DNA from: Sulfurimonas sp. HSL-3221
GTDB taxonomy: Bacteria > Campylobacterota > Campylobacteria > Campylobacterales > Sulfurimonadaceae
DNA: 64,000 nt
Direction of reading: 5' to 3'
Assembly (NCBI RefSeq): GCF_021044585.1
Contig: NZ_CP087998.1
Location: forward strand, 2,046,001 to 2,110,000
This document shows positions 10,975 through 48,289 of the stretch, piece by piece. Position 1 is the first letter of the stretch. Each line of letters starts with the position of its first letter. A program made the translations under genes and the position numbers. Below the pieces are notes generated by a model. It worked only from the letters and a program-made list of their open reading frames with translations. It was not told the origin of the DNA and searched no databases.

Positions 10975-13900
10975 ATGACAAGCAGTAAATCCATACGTTT
11001 GTTTGTCGCTGCTGCCACGACCTTTGTGCTTTTCTCCCATGATGGTCATGCGGCGTGTGAAGATCAAAATAATCTCAATCAGTGCAACCGGACCGGGTAT
11101 TGTGCCTGGGATACGGATGCTGGGGTCTGTAGAACCGGCATGCAGGAGGACCTCTGTTACGATACGCCGGTGACGGAGTGTTCTTTACATGCTGTCGTCG
11201 GCAGCGTACTTGATATCGCAACGGATGTCCTGCCCATCCTCACCCCTATCCTTGACAGCCAGGGAATCGTCTACACCGTCGTCGACGGTGTCATTTATAT
11301 CGCCTGCGATGTCGTCGATCTTGTCCAAAGTATTCTGGATGCCATCAATATCAATCTGCTGGGGCTTATCCAGATCAATTTGGGAGAGGGTATCCAGATC
11401 CTGCAAAAAAACACGATCCCGATCAAGCACGCCAATATGGACGGTGACCTTTCCGATGTTCAGGTCATCGCCGACAATTCGCTGCTCCAATCCCTGATAG
11501 GGCTCGTCGATTTCTGCGGTGTCGATGGGAACCCCGGAAACTGTCAGCGCGAAAGCGCGCTGCAGATCAATCTGGGCTACCTCGGTCTTGTCGATCTCCT
11601 GGGCGACGCCATTGTATACGACATGCCGAACATGGCCGTTGCGGACGGGAACCACACCGTCTTCGCGCTGACAACACTCAACATCGATATTCTGGCACTG
11701 CTTGGCAACGCTTCTTCGCCGCTGCTGTACGGGCGCTACGCTAAAAACGGCGAAACGTTCGGCGGCCTGATCGCCAGCTGTTCCGCCGCAGGAGGGGGAG
11801 GAAGCGGAGAGCCCTCCGTCCCCTCGACAGCGGACATCGTCGACACCGACGAATATCCCAATTTTGCGAGCCGCCAGGTTCTGAAAACAAAGGTCGCGGG
11901 GAACCCGCAGACCGCGCTGACGGTCGTCTACCTCGATCCGACGACGCATGAGCCCAAAGTCTACAACAGCAGCGGAGAGTTCAAATGGTTACCGCCCCTT
12001 GAAGTCCTGCTCTACCGCACGGACAGCAGCTGTACGGACGAGCTTCCCCTGGCGGCGCCGACGACGGGGAACCCCGTGGGCGAACCCGTCATCGCCTACA
12101 TTGAAAGCGGCACAAGCTATGCCGACGCCAATACCTTTACAATGGCTTCCGTCGCCAACAGCAATACCCGTATACTCGCCCAATACGCCGACTGGGGCGA
12201 TCTGCTCAACGATCTCGCCTCAGCCAGCAGCTGTTTTTTGAACTCCAACTGGGAGGGTAACTTCAACGGCCTTCCCCAGTGTCTGAACAACCTGGGTAGC
12301 AGCAGCGGAATTTCTCAAGAACTAATAGAGAAATACCCCAATATCGCCACGGTATGTCTCAACCCGCTTTTAACGGGCGACCAGCAGCCGTGCGGCTCCT
12401 CCGCCTACGACAACAGCGGCTCCAAGGGCTTTATCCTGCCGGAAAAATACAATCACGCCTACGGGTGCCTGGCCTGTATCCTTGACAATGCTGCGGATGT
12501 GACGGCCTGTTCAAGCGACAATTTTGCCATCCGGCCATCATCCTACACCCTGGGGCTCAGCGACTCCTCCACCCCCAAAATCGCCGGTATGTCCTATACG
12601 CTGGAATCCGACGCCCTTTACGTCGGCGGGGGAACGGCTCCGACCAGCGGTTATACCACGACGCTTGACAATAGCAACGACAAAAATGCCTCTTTCATTT
12701 TCAGTCCTGTAGCTGCCGCGACCAACTGCCCCTACGGCGATCACGGTTTCACGTTCAGCTTCACAGACGGCGTAGGCTCGGGTTCGATCAGTTACCCGAA
12801 CGTCGGCGATGTCAATATCACCCTGGCCGATGCAAACTGGACGGGTGTAGATCAAAACAAAGTCGGATGGCAGGAGTGCCTCCCCGATTCGAACAGGACA
12901 TCCCCTGACCCCGTAGGGTGTTTGGTGACGGCAAGAGTATCCGAACGTTTCATCCCCGACCATTTCGACGTCAACGCCTCGCTCGACAACGCCGGCAGCG
13001 GCTTCACCTATCTTTATGACATGAACAAAGACAACGACGTCAACCAGACAGGTTATGACTACAACCTCTCAACCGCCTCCCTGGAAATAGAGGTATCGGC
13101 GATGGGTGCGAACGGCATCGGTACCCTGAGCAACTATCTCGACAGCTGTTATGCCCAGGACACCAATATCACGCTGCAGACGGCAGGTACACAGATCAGC
13201 CCGCCGTCGGCGCTGGACTATTTCCTCTATTTCAACCCGACCGAAGCGGATCCGAATGTTTCCAACAGCGGTGAAGGAAAAACCGCCCTGCCCGCGAGCG
13301 GTCTATTAAGTTCCTTGCCCATTACCAACGTCACGGCAAGTTTCCCGTCCCGGACGGCGCCGGACGCCAACGGGACGACGTTGATCGCATACCGGATCAA
13401 CTTCGACCGTCGAGTCAATCAGCCTGTCAATCCGTTCCGGCTCTCGTTGTCCAGCGTCGACATTGTGGATACCGACGGCGTTTTCGGCTCTGACAACAGC
13501 CCAAGCCCCGATACTGCCACCTTCCTCTACGGCCGGGTACACGCACCCCGCTACCGTATTGATTGCAGCAGCGCCGCGCTGAGTTCCTGCTCGTCGACAC
13601 AACCGCTGCAGCTCTTTTTCGAGTTCTACAGCAGCGATAACAATCTGACGCTCAGACGACAATACGCCCTGGACAACGAGCGAAGCAAAGATGCGATCCT
13701 CTGGTTCCGCAACACGGACCACAGCGCCCTGCTTGAGGGCAATATCACCGTGCTCAGCCACCGCTACAACGGCTATGACCTCTATACGACATCGGCACCG
13801 CTGCATCAAAACGGCGGCATCGGCACTCCGGCAGCCGGGGCTTCCTCGGTGAGCATCGGTTATGACGGCAGCAGGGGCTACCCCTACAAATCATCCATCG

Positions 13901-14067
13901 GTCTGCATACGCAAAAGTGGTTGAACTACGACCGGTTCAATACCGATCCGGATGTCAACAGCTCTTTTATGATCGAGTTCAATGCCGTCGGCCAGAAGAC
14001 AGGCGAAGGCAACGTCCCCAATACGGATAGCGGGCCGGCCAATTCGAACAGAAGAATCATGTGGTAA
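10975..14067 (+). CDS. Large secreted MshQ-like protein 1 (DUF6701-type C-terminus)
   Basis: 1030 residues with a Sec signal peptide (FVAAATTFVLFSHDGHA) and then a cysteine-rich start. The N-terminal half has a long run of amphipathic, Ile/Leu/Val/Asp-rich sequence (about 70-260) and a Gly/Ser linker near 280, with no family I recognise. From about residue 510 (DNFAIRP) to the end it matches the second large protein at 15830: IPDHFDVNASLD, DTATFLYGR, HAPRYR, DNERSKDAILWFRNT and the terminal DSGPANSNRRIMW. Such C-termini occur in MSHA biogenesis protein MshQ, a cell-surface component of MSHA-type pili. No pilin genes are adjacent; a GIY-YIG gene follows. Confidence 0.72.
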   Translation: MTSSKSIRLFVAAATTFVLFSHDGHAACEDQNNLNQCNRTGYCAWDTDAGVCRTGMQEDLCYDTPVTECSLHAVVGSVLDIATDVLPILTPILDSQGIVYTVVDGVIYIACDVVDLVQSILDAININLLGLIQINLGEGIQILQKNTIPIKHANMDGDLSDVQVIADNSLLQSLIGLVDFCGVDGNPGNCQRESALQINLGYLGLVDLLGDAIVYDMPNMAVADGNHTVFALTTLNIDILALLGNASSPLLYGRYAKNGETFGGLIASCSAAGGGGSGEPSVPSTADIVDTDEYPNFASRQVLKTKVAGNPQTALTVVYLDPTTHEPKVYNSSGEFKWLPPLEVLLYRTDSSCTDELPLAAPTTGNPVGEPVIAYIESGTSYADANTFTMASVANSNTRILAQYADWGDLLNDLASASSCFLNSNWEGNFNGLPQCLNNLGSSSGISQELIEKYPNIATVCLNPLLTGDQQPCGSSAYDNSGSKGFILPEKYNHAYGCLACILDNAADVTACSSDNFAIRPSSYTLGLSDSSTPKIAGMSYTLESDALYVGGGTAPTSGYTTTLDNSNDKNASFIFSPVAAATNCPYGDHGFTFSFTDGVGSGSISYPNVGDVNITLADANWTGVDQNKVGWQECLPDSNRTSPDPVGCLVTARVSERFIPDHFDVNASLDNAGSGFTYLYDMNKDNDVNQTGYDYNLSTASLEIEVSAMGANGIGTLSNYLDSCYAQDTNITLQTAGTQISPPSALDYFLYFNPTEADPNVSNSGEGKTALPASGLLSSLPITNVTASFPSRTAPDANGTTLIAYRINFDRRVNQPVNPFRLSLSSVDIVDTDGVFGSDNSPSPDTATFLYGRVHAPRYRIDCSSAALSSCSSTQPLQLFFEFYSSDNNLTLRRQYALDNERSKDAILWFRNTDHSALLEGNITVLSHRYNGYDLYTTSAPLHQNGGIGTPAAGASSVSIGYDGSRGYPYKSSIGLHTQKWLNYDRFNTDPDVNSSFMIEFNAVGQKTGEGNVPNTDSGPANSNRRIMW

Positions 14068-14498: not shown

Positions 14499-14759
14499 AT
14501 GACCGAAGCCGAAGACCTTACCGACCTGTTGGAGAATGACGTGATCCCCGAGATCGAATCGTTTATCGACGACCTTTATGAAAAAATTGCCGAAACCAAA
14601 AACGCGACAGAAGAGGACAAGACACAGCTGGCTGAACTGCAGGAGCTGAAAAAGGAGTTCTCCTTATTGCTTGACGAGGTCAAAAACGGCGAACTGGACG
14701 AGGAAGAGTGTCGCGCCATCATCGACGAGATCGACATGATGCGTGAAGAAGAGGAGTAA
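14499..14759 (+). CDS. Small acidic coiled-coil protein
   Basis: 86 residues, about one third Asp/Glu, almost all predicted helix with heptad-like spacing (ELQELKKEFSLLLDEV). No signal peptide or membrane segment. I do not recognise a family. It ends 7 bases before the proC start, so it shares a transcript with proC; conservation next to proC would be the best clue to its role. Confidence 0.65.
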   Translation: MTEAEDLTDLLENDVIPEIESFIDDLYEKIAETKNATEEDKTQLAELQELKKEFSLLLDEVKNGELDEEECRAIIDEIDMMREEEE

Positions 14760-14766
14760 GAGAGCC

Positions 14767-15528
14767 ATGAAAAAAACAGTGACCTTTATCGGCAACGGCA
14801 ACATGGCTGTCGCCATGGCGAAAACCCTGAAAGAGCGTTATCTCATCGAGGTGGTCGGCCGGGATCTCGCGCACCTTGACACCTTTGAAGCCGCCGTCGA
14901 CACCGACGTCACCAAGCACCTCCTTAATGACTTCGACATCACCGGGAAAACCCTGCTGCTCTGTGTCAAACCGGCCAATATCGTCGAGGTCGGCGGGAAA
15001 CTCCAGGGAAAAGCCGAAGCCCTCTATTCCGTGCTTGCCGGCACAAAGGTTGAAACCCTCAAAAGCCACATTGCCGCCGCCGGGACCGTCCGCGCCATGC
15101 CCAATCTCGCCGCGACCGTCGGCAGGTCCATGACGACGCTGACCGGCGACCGGCACCTCGAAGCCGAAGCCATTGCCCTGTTCGATGCGATCGGGATGAC
15201 GCTCTGGCTCGGCAGCGAGAAAGAGCTCGATATCGCCACGGGGCTTGCCGGGAGCGGCCCCGCCTACCTCGCGCTTATCGCCGAAGCTCTCGCCGACGGC
15301 GCTGTCAAACAGGGACTCAAGCGCGATGACGCCATGACCGTGATGCGCGGGCTTTTTGCCGGTTTCGGGGAGCTGATTCAGCACGAACACCCCGCCTTGC
15401 TTAAAGACGGCGTCATGAGCCCCGGCGGCACGACGGCTGCCGGCTACAGCGCCCTGGAAGAGGCCGGGGTCCGAAACGGCTGTATCCAGGCCGTGGAGCG
15501 TGCTTTTGAGAAGGCGCGTTCCTCCTGA
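14767..15528 (+). CDS. proC: Pyrroline-5-carboxylate reductase
   Basis: 253 residues; catalyses the last step of proline synthesis, reducing pyrroline-5-carboxylate with NAD(P)H. The N-terminal Rossmann motif is TFIGNGNMAVAMA, and the C-terminal ProC signature is present around MSPGGTTAAGYSALEEAGVR. The ATG at 14767 is chosen over an upstream in-frame start because the dinucleotide-binding strand begins at once (MKKTVTFIGNG) and GAGGAG precedes it. Length is close to the family norm (about 260). Confidence 0.94.
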   Translation: MKKTVTFIGNGNMAVAMAKTLKERYLIEVVGRDLAHLDTFEAAVDTDVTKHLLNDFDITGKTLLLCVKPANIVEVGGKLQGKAEALYSVLAGTKVETLKSHIAAAGTVRAMPNLAATVGRSMTTLTGDRHLEAEAIALFDAIGMTLWLGSEKELDIATGLAGSGPAYLALIAEALADGAVKQGLKRDDAMTVMRGLFAGFGELIQHEHPALLKDGVMSPGGTTAAGYSALEEAGVRNGCIQAVERAFEKARSS

Positions 15529-15829: not shown

Positions 15830-18800
15830 ATGTTTGGAAATGTTATTTTTCATTTTGCCAAAACAGCAAGCGCAATTTTGCTCTTTTCAATGCTGTTTTT
15901 TCTTCCCCAAACCCTCTCGGCAGTTATCACAGGTGTGCCGGGTGACTGTAGCAGCGTCACAGATACCGCCGTTTTTGATCAGTCCAATCTCTCCTATACG
16001 AACTCTACCTACGTGGGGGGAGACTCAGAGAAGTGGGATTATTACTACTTCTCCGTCGATATACCGGGCGAACTTACCATTACGTTAGAGACGAACGCCA
16101 GCCTGGATCTTCTCTACAGTGAATCCTCCTGTACCACCATGACGGAGATCACCAGCCCCTATAGTATTAGCTATCTAAACCCGACGGATCTGATGGTCAA
16201 AGTCGAATCGGGCTCGGCGAACCAAAAAGATTATATTCTAAAAGTCACCTTTGTACCGGCACCGCTCTCCCTTGTGAAAACGAATGTTCCCGGGCAGATC
16301 CTGCAGAACAGCTCCACCAACATTGATTATTCACTGATGGGGGTCAACAACCAGGCTTTCGATAGCGGCAGCATCACTATTACGGATCAACTCCCTTCCG
16401 AAGCAAACCTTTCCACGTTCAACATCATCAATGACGGCGGCTGTACCTGTACAGCCCCGGATGCAACGAGAACCTTCAGCTGTAGCTGCCCTGCACTGGC
16501 TGCTGGGGATTATACGATCGTCGATTTCAACGTCACGCTCTCCGCCGGAGCGGCCCCGGATACGATCACGAACAATGCCAGTATGACGGACGGGATACAG
16601 AGTGCCGTCACCTCGTCAACTGTCGACGTTGTCGACGGCAAAGGGGTCGTCGAACTGAAAGTGGAAAAATATGCCGAAGCCGAAGCCATTCCGGTGGATA
16701 CGGATTTCTCATACTACATCTTTATCACCAACTACGACAATGCCTATGCCTATGGTGTCCAGATCTGGGACCAGATGGACCCGAACATCTACTACACCGG
16801 CTATGACACTTCGAGCGGCTGGATCTGTACCCCGCCGAACAGCCCCGCAGTCAAAGGTGACTCCTTTACGTGTAGCTACGTCGGGACAGACGGGACCGGT
16901 GCCATGGGCAAGGGGATCGTCTACCTGAAAATCAACGCGCGCACGGCCAGTGCGCTTGATACCGGCGTGACTGCCGACGTCAACGTCAGCACATGGAACA
17001 ACGTCGACTTAGACGCCGCCAATACCCTTCACAACAATTCCATCACGCATGCAAGTCGAGAGGTCAATATCACCTTGAACGATGTTGCACCGGGTGGCGG
17101 GGCCATCGGCGGTGTTTACATGAAAGGGGGCCTCGTCGAGATCTCCGAGAACGATCTCAGTGGTGGCAGAAGTACAGCAGAGCTGCGTACAAAAGTAGCC
17201 GCTCAGATCGGAAGAGCCAGCGCTTCGTACGCCACGGGTGAAATGCATGTCCCGACCTACTTTCTCAACGGCAGCAGCGACAGTGCCACGCCGACCGCCT
17301 ATAACCCTACGACTGCCGCCGGTTCCAACCCCATACCGCTGACGGTCATCATCAGACTCGCGAACGATGCGTGCGAGGAGGCAAGCCAGACATATGTCAC
17401 TTACACAAGCGATCCTGCCGTGAGCGGGGCACCGCTAAGCGCACTTTTCGAACCTGGCGACACTTCACCACGTTATGCGGGTACGAGTACAGAGGGTATC
17501 CCCGGTGATTTCAAACTGCGCAATATTGCGCTCAAAAAAGCACGCTATATTATGAAATATGTCGATATCAACGCGAAAATCGCGGATTCGGATGAAAAGT
17601 GTACACAAACCTCGACAACGCAATCAAATATCATGGGACTGCCCCAATGTATGAACTCCGGGGGTTCCACAAGCCTTGACAACAATAAATATCTCAACGT
17701 CTTTGGAACGTCCGCATTCGTACGCTGTTTCGGCCAGAACGGCAGTCCCTGCGATTCCAACAATCACGGCTACAGCTGCGGCGAAGGCAATACCAACTGT
17801 ATCGGCTACAATGCGGAATACGACCATGAATACGGATGCTACGAGTGTACGGTCGGGGGGCTCGGCTACTGTACTCAAGACAACTTTGCCATCCGCCCCA
17901 AAGCCTTTGATTCAAACATCACAACACTCGTCAGCGGCGGCGACCCCGTCAAAGCCGGTCTGGATTACGCTCTGGCGTTCAAAGGGCTGACGGGTAATAC
18001 GGCCGATCCGTCCGAAGCGACCCTCCTCTATAATGAGATAGAAGACACCCTGACCGACGGCACAACGTTCCAGATCGACCTGAACATCAGTGATCCGACG
18101 AAGGTCTGCCCGCAAACCAATATCAATATGACCCCCGCAGTCCACTTTGTTGACGGCGTAGATTCAGGCCTCTTCCGTTTTGACAATGTCGGCGATATCA
18201 ATTTCAGCATCCACGAAACGAACGGAACGGAGTTTGCGAAAGTGGATGTGAATGACACACCGTGGAGTGACAGACGTATCGAACCGTTCAACCTCTCCTT
18301 CCGCATTATTCCGGACCATTTCGAGGTCAACGCGACGCTTGACGACTACGGCGACGACTATACCTACCTCTATGACATGAACCTGTATGACGACTACAAC
18401 GTCTCGACCGCGACATTGATGTTGGACATCAAAACAATGGGTGCAGACAACAACGTCACGAGCAACTATATGGAGACCTGCTATGCCAAGGAGACCAATG
18501 TTACCCTGCAGATGCACAGCACCCAGATCAAACCGGCCGGTGCCGTGACCGAATTCCTCTATTACAACCCGGCGGAAAACAATGGAACGGCAAACAGCGG
18601 CGAAGGTTCGTACACACTGCCGGGCGGCACCCTGACATCGGTTCTGCTTGAAAACACGACGACAAGCTTCCCCGATGATGCCGTGGATGGAAACGGTACA
18701 ACCCATATCGAATACAGGCTCAACTTCAACCGGAAGGTCAACAAACCTGTCGATCCGGTGCGAATCGCGCTTAACAGTGTCTATGTGAATGACAGTGAAC

Positions 18801-19396
18801 CATCACCTTATACCGTGACCGGTTCTCATACTTCGACGGATACGGCCACCTTCCTCTATGGACGGGGGCATGCACCGCGCTACCGCGTCAACTGCGGTAC
18901 AGTCGTCACCGGCCCCTGCCTGTCGCAGAATTTGGAGCTCTTTTTTGAATTCTATGCGGACAACGACTCCAACCTGACGCTGCGCAGAGGATATGCCCAA
19001 GACAATGAGCGGAGTAAAGATGCTATCATGTGGTTCCGCAACACCAAGCACGATTCCGGGGCGGACGGCAATGTCACCCATTTGAGCCACAAGTTCTTCG
19101 GCTATGACCTCAACAGTTCGACAAGCCCCCTCTATCAGGGCACGTCGATCACCGCCCCGGGCAACGGCATTTCGAATGTGCGGATCGGTTACCGGGGCAG
19201 CGACGGTTATCCGTACAAGGCTTCCGTCAATCTCCATACGGATCGGTGGCTCAAGTACGACCGTTTCAACGCCAACCCCGACGTCAATGCGTCGTTCCTG
19301 ATTGAATTCAACGCCATCGGCGTGGAGGCGGGAGAAGGCAACCTTGACGGCACGGACAGCGGTCCGGCCAACTCAAATAGGAGAATCCGGTGGTAA
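15830..19396 (+). CDS. Large secreted MshQ-like protein 2 (DUF6701-type C-terminus)
   Basis: 1188 residues from the ATG at 15830, chosen because AAAAGGA precedes it and a signal peptide follows (SAILLFSMLFFLPQTLSA). The N-terminal half differs from protein 1: a pre-peptidase-like beta region (about 45-130), then two DUF11-like repeats (ITITDQLPSEANLS and FITNYDNAYAYGVQIWDQM). From about residue 683 (DNFAIRP) to the end it matches protein 1, closing with DSGPANSNRRIRW. Its stop overlaps the ATG of a prepilin gene (TAATG). The arrangement with three pilin-like genes fits MshQ of MSHA-type pili. Exposed or secreted location is inferred. Confidence 0.75.
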   Translation: MFGNVIFHFAKTASAILLFSMLFFLPQTLSAVITGVPGDCSSVTDTAVFDQSNLSYTNSTYVGGDSEKWDYYYFSVDIPGELTITLETNASLDLLYSESSCTTMTEITSPYSISYLNPTDLMVKVESGSANQKDYILKVTFVPAPLSLVKTNVPGQILQNSSTNIDYSLMGVNNQAFDSGSITITDQLPSEANLSTFNIINDGGCTCTAPDATRTFSCSCPALAAGDYTIVDFNVTLSAGAAPDTITNNASMTDGIQSAVTSSTVDVVDGKGVVELKVEKYAEAEAIPVDTDFSYYIFITNYDNAYAYGVQIWDQMDPNIYYTGYDTSSGWICTPPNSPAVKGDSFTCSYVGTDGTGAMGKGIVYLKINARTASALDTGVTADVNVSTWNNVDLDAANTLHNNSITHASREVNITLNDVAPGGGAIGGVYMKGGLVEISENDLSGGRSTAELRTKVAAQIGRASASYATGEMHVPTYFLNGSSDSATPTAYNPTTAAGSNPIPLTVIIRLANDACEEASQTYVTYTSDPAVSGAPLSALFEPGDTSPRYAGTSTEGIPGDFKLRNIALKKARYIMKYVDINAKIADSDEKCTQTSTTQSNIMGLPQCMNSGGSTSLDNNKYLNVFGTSAFVRCFGQNGSPCDSNNHGYSCGEGNTNCIGYNAEYDHEYGCYECTVGGLGYCTQDNFAIRPKAFDSNITTLVSGGDPVKAGLDYALAFKGLTGNTADPSEATLLYNEIEDTLTDGTTFQIDLNISDPTKVCPQTNINMTPAVHFVDGVDSGLFRFDNVGDINFSIHETNGTEFAKVDVNDTPWSDRRIEPFNLSFRIIPDHFEVNATLDDYGDDYTYLYDMNLYDDYNVSTATLMLDIKTMGADNNVTSNYMETCYAKETNVTLQMHSTQIKPAGAVTEFLYYNPAENNGTANSGEGSYTLPGGTLTSVLLENTTTSFPDDAVDGNGTTHIEYRLNFNRKVNKPVDPVRIALNSVYVNDSEPSPYTVTGSHTSTDTATFLYGRGHAPRYRVNCGTVVTGPCLSQNLELFFEFYADNDSNLTLRRGYAQDNERSKDAIMWFRNTKHDSGADGNVTHLSHKFFGYDLNSSTSPLYQGTSITAPGNGISNVRIGYRGSDGYPYKASVNLHTDRWLKYDRFNANPDVNASFLIEFNAIGVEAGEGNLDGTDSGPANSNRRIRW

Positions 19397-20055
19397 TGAA
19401 ACGCGCATTTACGATGATTGAGATGATCTTCGCAATCATCATTATCGGCATCACGGTTGCCGGCGTTTCGCAGATCATGACGCGAAGCGGGAATACAATG
19501 GAGGGCGCCCTTTCGCAAGAAGCGGTCTTCCTGGCTTCCATGGAAGCAGCCAAGATCTTTTCGCACCGATGGGACCCTAATTCCAAAGACACCTCGAGCG
19601 AACTCGCCTATTCAAAAATTCTCGATACAAACTGGGATGCCAACCACAAACGCACCTGTCTCGACACGGCTACTGGCTCAAAATATGCGGTCCCGTGTGC
19701 TGCCGACGACATCCAGACCGTCCTGCGCTACGGCGGTATCGCCGAGGACAAACACCGCCGTTTCCACAGCCAAAGTACCGCCTCCTCACAACCCTATCCT
19801 GACGGTGTCCCTAATGGTACGACGGATATCAACATCACCAATGAGCACGGCTACAAACGCACCTACCAGGTCGCCGTCAACTCCGGCTATATCGGCACGG
19901 CTTTCGCTACGGGAACGGTGGGAGGACCCACCGACATTAAAATGACCGTTGTCTCCATCAATGATAAGAACAACGGCAACGCCAATCTTGTCCGGATGCG
20001 GGTCTATTCATACAATATCGGTGAAATCGACTATGCCAAGAGGACGTTCCAATGA
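19396..20055 (+). CDS. Type IV prepilin-like protein (MshD-like minor pilin)
   Basis: 219 residues starting MKRAFTMIEMIFAIIIIG: a short basic leader, cleavage expected between Ala and Phe, Glu at +5 and a hydrophobic helix, all typical of type II/IV prepilins processed by PilD-type peptidases. The start ATG shares a base with the MshQ-like stop (TAATG); a GTG six bases up is possible. The globular domain is unlike major pilins. Length and position before an MshO-like gene suggest an MshD-like minor subunit (inference). The last bases overlap the next gene. Confidence 0.8.
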   Translation: MKRAFTMIEMIFAIIIIGITVAGVSQIMTRSGNTMEGALSQEAVFLASMEAAKIFSHRWDPNSKDTSSELAYSKILDTNWDANHKRTCLDTATGSKYAVPCAADDIQTVLRYGGIAEDKHRRFHSQSTASSQPYPDGVPNGTTDINITNEHGYKRTYQVAVNSGYIGTAFATGTVGGPTDIKMTVVSINDKNNGNANLVRMRVYSYNIGEIDYAKRTFQ

Positions 20056-20897
20056 GAATGTATTACAATAGGCTACGGCGTGCGTTTACGATGATCGAAC
20101 TGGTCTTCGTCATTGTCATTATGGGTATCCTTGCCAAGTTCGGCGTGGAAATTTTCCTGCAGATCTATGAAAGCTATACGCGGACGACCATCGCCGCCTC
20201 GCTCTTGAGCAAATCCGAGGCTGCCGTCAGTCAGATCGCCAATCGCCTGACGTATAGGGTCAAAGATTCCATCATCGCCAGCAGCAGCCCGGCGGCATCC
20301 TTCGTACCGCTCTCCAGCGTCACCGGCAACGAGACCGTCTTTGAATGGATCGGGCTGGACAGCAACGGATGGGATAAGGGCAACTTCAGCGGCATCGTCG
20401 ACCTTAATGACGGCAATACGACCTATACCCAGCTTCACAGTCCCGGGACCACCACGTTACCGGCGAACGGCGCCCTGCTCTTTATCGGTTCGAAAGTCAA
20501 TGTCCAGAACAGTTTTGGGTGGCACGACACGAATGCTTCTTCGAACAGCCACCAGGATCTTTATGTCTACGATGCCGTCGCAGTCACATCGCAGAACATC
20601 AACTTTGCCACCAACCCCTTTACGGCGGGTGATGAGATCTTTGAGTTCTATCATGTTGCGGACAGTGCATACGCGCTTGTGCTCGACACGGTCAATCATA
20701 AGCTCTATCTTCACCAGGACTATCAACCGTGGCAGGCTGAAATCTATACGGGCACGGGTGACCTGCTGACGGATAACGTCAAAACCTTTACGCTGCAAAA
20801 AGCGGGGGACATCATCAGAATCGAGCTTTGCCTCAGCAACAATGATTTCATGGGTGAAGGGGAGTATTCAATATGCAAAACAAAAATCGTGTTCTAA
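20052..20897 (+). CDS. Type IV prepilin-like protein (MshO-like minor pilin)
   Basis: 281 residues. Leader MRMYYNRLRRA, then FTMIELVFVIVIMGILAKFG with Glu at +5 and a hydrophobic helix. The gene starts inside the end of the previous prepilin gene (ATGA overlap) and itself overlaps the next gene, so the group is translationally coupled. Its larger size and its place between an MshD-like and an MshP-like gene fit MshO, a minor pseudopilin of MSHA-type pili. The assignment to MshO rather than a PilW/GspJ-like protein is tentative. Confidence 0.78.
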   Translation: MRMYYNRLRRAFTMIELVFVIVIMGILAKFGVEIFLQIYESYTRTTIAASLLSKSEAAVSQIANRLTYRVKDSIIASSSPAASFVPLSSVTGNETVFEWIGLDSNGWDKGNFSGIVDLNDGNTTYTQLHSPGTTTLPANGALLFIGSKVNVQNSFGWHDTNASSNSHQDLYVYDAVAVTSQNINFATNPFTAGDEIFEFYHVADSAYALVLDTVNHKLYLHQDYQPWQAEIYTGTGDLLTDNVKTFTLQKAGDIIRIELCLSNNDFMGEGEYSICKTKIVF

Positions 20898-21352
20898 AAC
20901 GGGGCGGCTTTGCCGTCATTGCCGCCGTTTTCATGATGCTGTTGATCACGCTCATGCTGCTGAAGATGCTCTCGTACTCCACCGACGTCTCTGCGCGTAC
21001 CAGTAACGACTATCTCAACGAGCAGGCACAGCTGCTGGCGTTCAATGCCACCGAAGACGCCGTCTACCGCATCTCGGGAGAAAACCGCGATGCAAACCTG
21101 AGCTGTACCACTTCCTTCAGTGACACCTACCCTTCAACGGGCACGGCCATGTTCAATATCAACGTGACGATCCAATACATCTGGCAAACCGGCATGATCC
21201 CCGGCGGCACCGGATGTAACAACATCCTGACCACGGTGACGACCGATACCCAGCATGGCTCCGCATTGATCGACGTTTATATTACATCGCATGCTTCACT
21301 GAATCTGGATGAACCGATCCGGTTTCACCGGCGCACGCTGCAAAAATTGTAA
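20873..21352 (+). CDS. PilX/MshP-like pseudopilin lacking Glu5
   Basis: 159 residues. The N-terminus KRGGFAVIAAVFMMLLITLML looks like a prepilin helix with cleavage after Gly-Gly, but position +5 is not glutamate, as in GspK/PilX/MshP-class tip components. The start ATG lies 25 bases inside the previous gene behind GGGGAG. The rest has a single Cys pair and no other motif. It is the last gene of the operon, followed by 41 bases and the convergent hpf gene. Confidence 0.72.
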   Translation: MQNKNRVLKRGGFAVIAAVFMMLLITLMLLKMLSYSTDVSARTSNDYLNEQAQLLAFNATEDAVYRISGENRDANLSCTTSFSDTYPSTGTAMFNINVTIQYIWQTGMIPGGTGCNNILTTVTTDTQHGSALIDVYITSHASLNLDEPIRFHRRTLQKL

Positions 21353-21393: not shown

Positions 21394-21930
21394 TTAGTAG
21401 AGACCGAAACGACCGTCGTTTCGTTTGTAGAGAACCCGAGTCTTCCCGTCGTTATCAAGGAAGATCTCAAACTGCTTTTCACCCGTTTTCAGCTCATCCA
21501 GCACATCGGCGACTTCCCTCGGTTTGTAACTCTCCAGTTCAACCGGGATGACTTCGTCCTCCAGTGCTTCGGCCGCCGCTTTGACGTCCGCCGAATCGCT
21601 CTTGGCATCGTTCATACTCTCATGATGATGATCGCTCAGCTTGTCATGCATACGGCGCAGCGCCTTCTGTGCCCGCTCGATCGCGATGTCGATTGCAGCG
21701 TACATATCATCGTCGCTCTGCTTGATAACAACGGTATTCTTGCCGGCAAGGTTGATGGTAAACTCCACCGAGACACCCTGTTTTTTCCCGATGCTTCGCT
21801 TGGCGCAGACCGCCTGTGCCGAAATGATGTCCAGGTTGAACTTCGAGAGCGATGCGATCGCATTTTGCAAATACTCTTTAATGGGATCGGTCAACTCGAT
21901 CGCTCTACCGGTCAGTGAGATATTCATCAT
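21394..21930 (-). CDS. hpf: Long-form ribosome hibernation promoting factor
   Basis: 178 residues from the ATG pair at 21930/21927, preceded by GAAAGG. The N-terminal domain (NISLTGRAIELTDPIKEYL to RAQKALRRMHDKL) is the S30AE/YfiA ribosome-binding fold. After an acidic linker, the C-terminal dimerisation domain (PVELESYKPREVADVLDELK to NDGRFGLY) marks the long form that pairs ribosomes into 100S particles in stationary or stressed cells. A near-perfect -10 box lies about 50 bases upstream. Confidence 0.92.
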   Translation of the reverse strand: MMNISLTGRAIELTDPIKEYLQNAIASLSKFNLDIISAQAVCAKRSIGKKQGVSVEFTINLAGKNTVVIKQSDDDMYAAIDIAIERAQKALRRMHDKLSDHHHESMNDAKSDSADVKAAAEALEDEVIPVELESYKPREVADVLDELKTGEKQFEIFLDNDGKTRVLYKRNDGRFGLY

Positions 21931-21977
21931 GGAACCTTTCCGGGCCTCGCCCTCTGTGTGAATTGTCGTAGGCAACG

Positions 21978-47347: not shown

Positions 47348-48289
47348 ATGTCCTCCGCAACCTTCACTATCGCCGCCGTCCAGGCGGAGCCCGTTTTCCT
47401 CGACCCGGAGGGGAGCATAGGCAAAGCGTGCCGCCTCATCGCCGAAGCGGCGGAGAAAGGGGCGAAGCTCATCGTCTTCCCCGAAGCCTTCATCGCGGGC
47501 TATCCCGACTGGATCTGGCAGGTCCCTCCGGGCAATATGGCTCTCAACCAGTCCCTCTACGCCCGTTTCCTCGATGCCGCCGTCGCCCTCCCCTCCCCGG
47601 AGGTAAAGAGCCTCTGCGACGCGGCAGCAGCGGCGCACGTCTACCTGGCAATCGGCATCAACGAACGCAGCGCAAGCGGCGGTTCTGTCTATAACACCCT
47701 GCTCTTTATCGGGCCGGAGGGGCGCGTGCTCGGACACCACCAGAAACTCGTTCCGACTCTCGCCGAGCGCACGGTTTGGGCCTTCGGCGACCCCGCAACT
47801 CTGGAGGTGTACGACACGCCCATGGGCAGGCTCGGCGGGCTTATCTGCTGGGAGAACTATATGCCCCTCGTGCGCCAGAGCCTTTACGAGCGGGGCATCG
47901 CCCTCTATGCCGCACCGACCTACGATGAGGGGAGCGCCTGGCAGGCAAGCATGCGCCACATCGGCAAGGAGGGGCGCGTCTACATCGCCGGCTGCTGCAT
48001 GATACTGCGCAAGCAGAGCGTGCTCGACGCCCTCCCCGAGCTTGAGCCCTATTACCGCGAAAGCGGCGAATGGATCAACAGCGGCAACAGCATGATCGCC
48101 GGTCCGAACGGCGAAGTGCTCGCCGAGCCACTCTACCAGAAAGAGGGGATCCTCTACGCCGAAATCGACCCCATGCGCCAGAAAGGGGCGAAATGGAACC
48201 TCGACGTCGCAGGCCACTACGCGCGCCCCGACGCCTTCAGGCTGGAGAGGGATTTTCTGAAAGGGGTGACGCCGGAGAGGGGGGAGTAG
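47348..48289 (+). CDS. Nitrilase-type carbon-nitrogen hydrolase
   Basis: 313 residues. The catalytic triad is visible: Glu46 in IVFPEAFIAGYPDW, Lys133 in GHHQKLVPT and Cys167 in LICWENYMPL. The CWENYMPL block and the length are those of true nitrilases (nitrile to acid plus ammonia) rather than amidases, though specificity needs testing. Its last 53 bases overlap the convergent FMN-binding gene in antisense. Confidence 0.88.
   Translation: MSSATFTIAAVQAEPVFLDPEGSIGKACRLIAEAAEKGAKLIVFPEAFIAGYPDWIWQVPPGNMALNQSLYARFLDAAVALPSPEVKSLCDAAAAAHVYLAIGINERSASGGSVYNTLLFIGPEGRVLGHHQKLVPTLAERTVWAFGDPATLEVYDTPMGRLGGLICWENYMPLVRQSLYERGIALYAAPTYDEGSAWQASMRHIGKEGRVYIAGCCMILRKQSVLDALPELEPYYRESGEWINSGNSMIAGPNGEVLAEPLYQKEGILYAEIDPMRQKGAKWNLDVAGHYARPDAFRLERDFLKGVTPERGE

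Follow-up and report, generated by a model that had tools for sequence, protein, structure and literature searches.

Organization of the Q-D-O-P gene cluster

The analyzed DNA (hereafter the window) is a 64,000-nucleotide stretch of the genome of Sulfurimonas sp. HSL-3221 (contig NZ_CP087998.1, positions 2,046,001 to 2,110,000). It contains four genes, designated Q, D, O and P, that resemble mshQ, mshD, mshO and mshP of the mannose-sensitive hemagglutinin (MSHA) type IV pilus. Inspection of the open reading frames (ORFs) confirmed a prediction made earlier from the letters of this DNA (the original prediction), namely that a Campylobacterota genome carries these genes with Q first and each gene overlapping the next. 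All four frames are open and lie on the + strand; the Q/D, D/O and O/P overlaps are 7, 4 and 25 bp, respectively. The cluster is composed of the following features:

15830-19396, + strand: Q, MshQ-like protein of 1188 aa (from the ORF list; DUF6701 at 30.8 bits, cut-off 27)
about 16655-17023, + strand: DUF11 region within Q
about 17825-19393, + strand: conserved C-terminal part of Q
19379-19393, + strand: C-terminal tail of Q, RRIRW
19390-20055, + strand: D, MshD-like minor pilin, 221 aa from the GTG at 19390 or 219 aa from the ATG at 19396
20052-20897, + strand: O, MshO-like minor pilin of 281 aa
20873-21352, + strand: P, MshP-like protein without Glu5, 159 aa

The ATG start codon of Q (position 15830) lies within a longer TTG-initiated frame from 15695, and the N terminus of the protein, read by eye, appears signal-peptide-like. 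D and O carry both marks of a type IV pilin, an N-terminal methylation motif and Glu5. When the whole genome was searched with the N_methyl model, both exceeded the Pfam threshold (D with 23.3 bits, O with 25.7); in hmmscan, O (22.3 bits) was above the cut-off and D (19.8 bits) below it (21.2). Glu5 is invariant in the alignments (24 of 24 rows for D, 27 of 27 for O). P has a hydrophobic N terminus without Glu5 (as seen on reading the N termini) and no Pfam match, as expected for a capping subunit. Promoter- and terminator-like sites were no more numerous than in shuffled sequence.

Conservation of the gene order in Campylobacterota

We read 69 loci, chosen by similarity to Q or O and not as a random sample: the window, 40 loci around Q matches, 20 around O matches, and 8 of the 17 obtained from a scan of named genomes. 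Thresholds of 50, 80 and 50 bits for D, O and P retained 61 of them, the eight dropped loci being seven with Q only and one ending before P. A Q gene occurs nearby in 48 of the 61 D-O-P loci and is upstream of D in every one of the 48, within 100 bp in 45 and overlapping D in 40; in three of the linked loci described below about 2 kb separates the two genes. Six loci of another family (f5) have a gene read as proC directly before D, and Q is located elsewhere in those genomes. Named members with the locus include Sulfurimonas and Sulfuricurvum, and a tree of O proteins places the window among rows labelled Sulfurimonadaceae. Q-D-O-P is a common inherited arrangement in the phylum, not an oddity of one genome. 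The “rearranged order” of the original prediction stands insofar as it differs from the A-C-D-O-P-Q order of Aeromonas caviae, and falls as a peculiarity of this chromosome. The recurrence of both gene families and gene order throughout the phylum makes chance an unreasonable explanation.

A local rearrangement, our first guess, was ruled out by the neighborhoods of the 61 loci. Two further arrangements were observed: a large ORF with a Q-like tail, below threshold (L138), and three Q genes in a row with D-O-P not beside them (L099, genome G040).

The Q profile matched 202 of 397 Campylobacterota genomes, representing 41 of 68 genera, and 50 of the 51 own-family genomes among those listed. Patchy acquisition, suggested by DUF6701 matches in only 9 of 200 genomes, was ruled out by this profile of the family itself. 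Co-occurrence was evaluated in the 200 genomes common to the Q and O searches, with Q counted as a match at 0.001 and O as a best E-value of at most 1e-20. Both genes were found in 95 genomes, Q only in one, O only in three and neither in 101, counts that come from related genomes and hence not from independent events. One genome out of the 98 with O, G144, belongs to the 20 listed genomes that the MshL secretin model does not match (three more are unlisted); it has Q and an O split over two frames, and decay is possible. No match was found on plasmids when one Q C-terminal part was used as the query.

Similarity to the MSHA operon of Aeromonas

As a reference we used the MSHA operon of A. caviae (NZ_AP026896.1; L168), an unannotated record in which gene names were assigned by order and similarity. 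The 4.9 Mb replicon, filed as a plasmid, resembles a chromosome and carries an interrupted mshQ. The operon has the order L-M-(N)-E-G-(F,B)-A-C-D-O-P-Q, the bracketed genes not having been called. When the profiles of the window families were ranked among 15-16 Aeromonas proteins, each placed its namesake first: Q gave MshQ 26.0 bits (next below 0), D gave MshD 38.8 (next 23.0), P gave MshP 20.6 (next 10.7) and O gave MshO 34.5 (next MshA, 30.9). With the N-terminal helix removed MshD is still on top of the D profile (E 2.5e-4 among 16 proteins), and D alone of the three keeps a significant match.

We took the DUF6701 domain to be a mark of MshQ before testing it on Aeromonas, where the MshQ piece matches the model with 333 bits. 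The same model gives 30.8 bits for Q and 31.3 bits for Q1, a second Q paralogue in the window (cut-off 27), and is silent in 14 of 14 controls. No DUF6701 paper was found in a search of the open-access literature. The MSHA character claimed in the original prediction is borne out by the matches of Q and D and by the machine described next; the labels of O and P depend largely on gene position and the N-terminal helix.

Assembly machinery encoded elsewhere in the genome

Whole-genome searches covered the single-contig genome of 2,524,721 bases. They found no T2SSE, T2SSF, A24 N-terminal or secretin match within the window (genome positions 2046001-2110000), in line with the earlier remark that no assembly ATPase, PilC-like or secretin gene lies near Q-D-O-P. 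The machine that had been expected elsewhere was located at 689-698 kb, more than a million bases away: an MSHA-type cluster of nine genes in one run, I-J-K-L-M-N-x-E-G. Its MshL secretin matches TIGR02519 with 276 bits (cut-off 250.2), E combines the T2SSE and MshEN domains, G carries T2SSF, and M is an AAA protein (AAA_22). I, J, K and N are putative assignments made by position and weak similarity, without a meaningful family-model match, on a Vibrio msh gene order that we assume. The same order recurs in 9 of 11 complete loci of the stand-alone type defined below, with no label on K in L161 and no call of M in L165. Among 200 Campylobacterota genomes, 154 have an MshL-type secretin above the curated cut-off (0 of 14 controls).

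The search for PilB, PilC, PilD and PilQ homologues and further pilins, recommended with the original prediction, was productive. The genome encodes two secretins (the second is GspD, above the cut-off), two PilB/GspE-type ATPases plus three shorter ones, and two PilC/GspF-type platforms. Three PilT-family ATPases score above the cut-off. A prepilin peptidase, whose absence would have spoken against the prediction, is present in a single copy carrying both A24 domains. Three pilins are encoded at 617-619 kb, directly before a gene read as PriA; one of them is matched by Aeromonas MshA (55.8 bits), and all three are candidates for the major pilin. A type II secretion system (T2SS) is located at 2121-2132 kb, with GspD and GspG above the cut-off, a C-like PDZ gene, and occupied H, I, J and K places (I below the cut-off; the names H, J and K were given from position and visual inspection).

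Pilin genes preceding machine genes were also seen on a Legionella adelaidensis plasmid (L169, 8403-19827), where four genes annotated as pilin-type or T2SS, the fourth of 563 aa, stand upstream of an mshL cluster ending in a GspE-type gene.

Two classes of proposed tip genes and machines

MSHA machine genes come after Q-D-O-P and an additional pilin gene in 15 loci; these loci are referred to as linked, as opposed to stand-alone loci. A sixteenth linked locus (L123) was assigned by Q type and extra pilin only. Linked and stand-alone Q proteins belong to a single family (hhalign 100%, E 3.4e-64). In each of 14 genomes, O is present as two distinct full-length genes, one of them lying in a linked locus in all 14; seven loci of the partner copies were read, and all are stand-alone. 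In one further genome (G105), two O matches score equally. A single branch (support 100/100) divides the 62 rows of the O tree into 46 stand-alone and 16 linked ones, and the MshE tree (30 rows) contains a 12-row clade composed entirely of stand-alone-type loci (98/97) and an 11-row clade with ten linked ones (100/100). The tails of Q follow the same division, a terminal W being found in 39 of 43 proteins nearer the stand-alone profile and [FLY]R in 16 of 17 nearer the linked profile. A third Q class (L089, L116 and L117) has TPATR or APA[IT]R as its C terminus, and its O genes are set apart on a separate deep branch of the O tree.

Tail and head modules of the Q proteins

Over all 60 Q proteins, a terminal W is seen in 40 and a terminal [FLY]R in 16; the remaining four have other ends. 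The RR codons of the tail in the window (AGGAGA, 19379-19384) occupy the position expected for a ribosome-binding site of D and could serve as one. The W is not merely a by-product of this overlap, because some Q genes preceding D use other RR codons and because the W end is kept in 8 of 9 Q proteins of the seven loci without D-O-P.

Among 34 full-length Q proteins, Laminin_G_3 was found in six, Calx-beta in three, and Big_9, H_lectin, Laminin_G_2, Cadherin_5 and DUF11 in two each, other domains occurring once. These head domains are N-terminal, since the listings for 26 Q C-terminal parts include none of them. The idea of MshQ as an adhesin is not new: in Vibrio cholerae it was called a putative adhesin, and fewer surface pili were seen without it (PMC7096442; like the other papers given here by PMC number, cited from excerpts). 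In excerpts of two further papers, mshQ variants affect host choice in Vibrio fischeri (PMC4094467), and MshQ is given as a part of MSHA whose function is unknown (PMC9815625).

Second Q gene and neighboring genes

The surroundings of the cluster contain the following features:

10975-14067, + strand: Q1, second Q paralogue, 1030 aa (DUF6701, 31.3 bits), not followed by D-O-P
14743-15528, + strand: proC
21394-21975, - strand: gene of an S30AE ribosome-associated factor, convergent to P
48089-48176: tRNA-Gln (CTG), the sole tRNA gene found in the window

Q1, which was absent from the original prediction, shares 50% identity with Q across the last 549 residues (residues 16-564 of the Q C-terminal query). 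Between the two lie a gene of the GIY-YIG type, one encoding 86 aa, and proC; the gap from proC to Q is 301 bp with about 40% G+C. Of the other genomes of the genus, G288 has two Q matches 5 kb apart, and G191 and G359 have one each.

Interpretation of the locus and alternative explanations

In our view, Q-D-O-P is likely to code for the tip of a type IV pilus of the MSHA type, i.e., a priming complex and a modular adhesin, with the assembly machine encoded elsewhere. The prepilins D, O and P would be cleaved by the single prepilin peptidase and would together form the priming complex, with P, devoid of Glu5, as its cap. Q would be exported by a Sec-type signal, as its N terminus suggests, and held at the tip by the conserved C-terminal part and tail, leaving its variable N-terminal modules to do the sticking. 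The filament, made of a major pilin that may be one of those encoded at 617-619 kb, would be built by the MshE, MshG and MshL machine at 689-698 kb and exit via MshL; retraction by the PilT-family ATPases would be possible.

Several observations weigh against this interpretation. Tip and machine genes are unlinked in this genome, and 101 of 200 genomes have neither Q nor full-length O, yet an MshL-type secretin is above the cut-off in 154 of the 200. The O profile favors MshO over MshA by just 3.6 bits and, without the N-terminal helix, ranks MshO third and not significantly; the P match loses significance in the same way. At default filters, hmmscan lists DUF6701 in neither Q protein of the window (Q, 15830-19396, and Q1), having listed it in 6 of 26 Q C-terminal parts and 1 of 34 full-length Q proteins. 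In the MshE tree, L167, labelled stand-alone with a flank hidden by the contig end, groups with the linked rows, and L163 and L164, also labelled stand-alone, fall outside both clades, together with rows of genus g14 (see below). Loss of mshQ in V. cholerae reduces but does not abolish surface pili, and retraction continues, according to the excerpt of PMC7096442. Structural models of the Q C-terminal part and of O were of low confidence (mean predicted local distance difference test scores of 49.7 and 54.5) and were not used; nor were the Foldseek results, in which the O model had no match at E 0.001 and the Q model had integrins and Ig-like bacterial adhesins among its matches, whose TM-scores (template modelling scores) relative to the query did not exceed 0.28 among the rows shown.

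That Q-D-O-P belongs to a T2SS pseudopilus, the alternative named in the original prediction, is very improbable. The genome does encode a T2SS, and with N-terminal helices included D, O and P all resemble GspG, P being closer to it than to the 617-kb pilins (probability 93.5 vs. 85.5). D, however, is closer to the 617-kb pilins than to any T2SS pseudopilin (95.8 vs. 81.9), as is O (97.0 vs. 94.9), and without the helix the links of D, O and P to both groups vanish. Moreover, the T2SS has pseudopilins of its own (GspG above the cut-off and genes at the H, I, J and K places), none of the loci read had a gene labelled gsp D, E, F or G next to D-O-P, and 75 of the 98 genomes with O have no GspD above the cut-off, although in at least five of the 75 one falls just short of it; neither linkage of the module to a T2SS nor occurrence only together with one was found. 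Still harder to credit is a decaying, functionless remnant, as the unlinked machine and the absence of Q from this place in one family might hint, given four open, precisely overlapping frames and the near-universal presence of Q in the listed genomes of the own family.

A competence pilus, in which the machine serves DNA uptake and Q is a DNA- or surface-binding tip, besides or instead of adhesion, appears unlikely, on evidence that points both ways. The position of the 617-kb pilins before the PriA-like gene fits it, as Cj0683 of Campylobacter jejuni, a competence protein with a pilus-like N terminus, is presumably encoded beside priA. Two genomes of genus g14, which is probably Campylobacter, have a K-L-M-N-E-G run (L148 and L149) with lengths of 103-470-202-195-519-393, fitting those of C. 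jejuni ctsD (472), ctsP (202), ctsX (195) and ctsE (519), genes of the Cts system, described in the same excerpt as serving DNA uptake (PMC8308473). Against this, four g14 genomes (G084, G102, G111 and G173) are not among the Q-bearing ones and have best O matches of only about 5e-7 to 3e-9, so that a Cts-type machine needs no Q or O. The g14 MshE rows lie outside both machine clades, on branches so long that the tree does not settle their kinship, which therefore rests on gene order and lengths, the latter differing in two of the four g14 loci (slightly in L151, more in L150, where M was not found). A combined scheme is doubtful, though worth stating: one inherited MSHA-type pilus may both stick and take up DNA, with Q-D-O-P as an exchangeable adhesive tip whose lectin-like heads are swapped on a fixed tryptophan-tail mount, and with the Campylobacter Cts system as what remains after loss of the tip genes.

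Comparison with known systems

Most of the finding extends known biology. The excerpt of a review treats MSHA as too poorly characterized to tabulate and as found in few Proteobacteria only (PMC10191384); MSHA-type genes of the phylum are nevertheless already in print, since MshL and MshM are listed in Campylobacter ureolyticus (PMC3758288). With Q-D-O-P read as the tip of an MSHA-type pilus, the phylum provides many natural variants, in which differing head domains are joined to C-terminal parts of a single family, as well as cells whose machine and tip genes fall into two classes, in which tip specificity is testable. A family in which to place the Cts system is gained as well.

The locus shares with the MSHA systems of Vibrio, Aeromonas and Shewanella the machine order L-M-(N)-E-G, the secretin type, the D and Q families, probably also those of O and P, and DUF6701 at the end of Q. 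It differs in having Q-D-O-P instead of D-O-P-Q, in tip genes standing apart from the machine, and in the Q terminus, which is R-R-I-x-W here and YRREVLH in Aeromonas MshQ. In the excerpted published MSHA model, mshA may stand alone and the D-O-P-Q order is not a defining feature (PMC6668835). In the Campylobacter Cts system the machine genes form the same run, and their lengths match in the two genomes taken as Campylobacter; Q and full-length O were not found there, M and N are shorter, and Cts looks like a reduced relative of the MSHA-type machine. In PilC/PilY1 and PilHIJK of type IVa pili, too, a large protein that is modular and not a pilin accompanies minor pilins, and the capping subunit lacks Glu5 (PMC10191384, in part), but the PilY1 model PF05567 matched 0 of 200 genomes, a count uninformative on absence as it also matched 0 of 14 controls. 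The T2SS pseudopilus resembles the locus in its pilin-type signals and in minor subunits encoded in an operon; the difference is that this genome has a separate T2SS and that Q-D-O-P occurs also in genomes without GspD above the cut-off.

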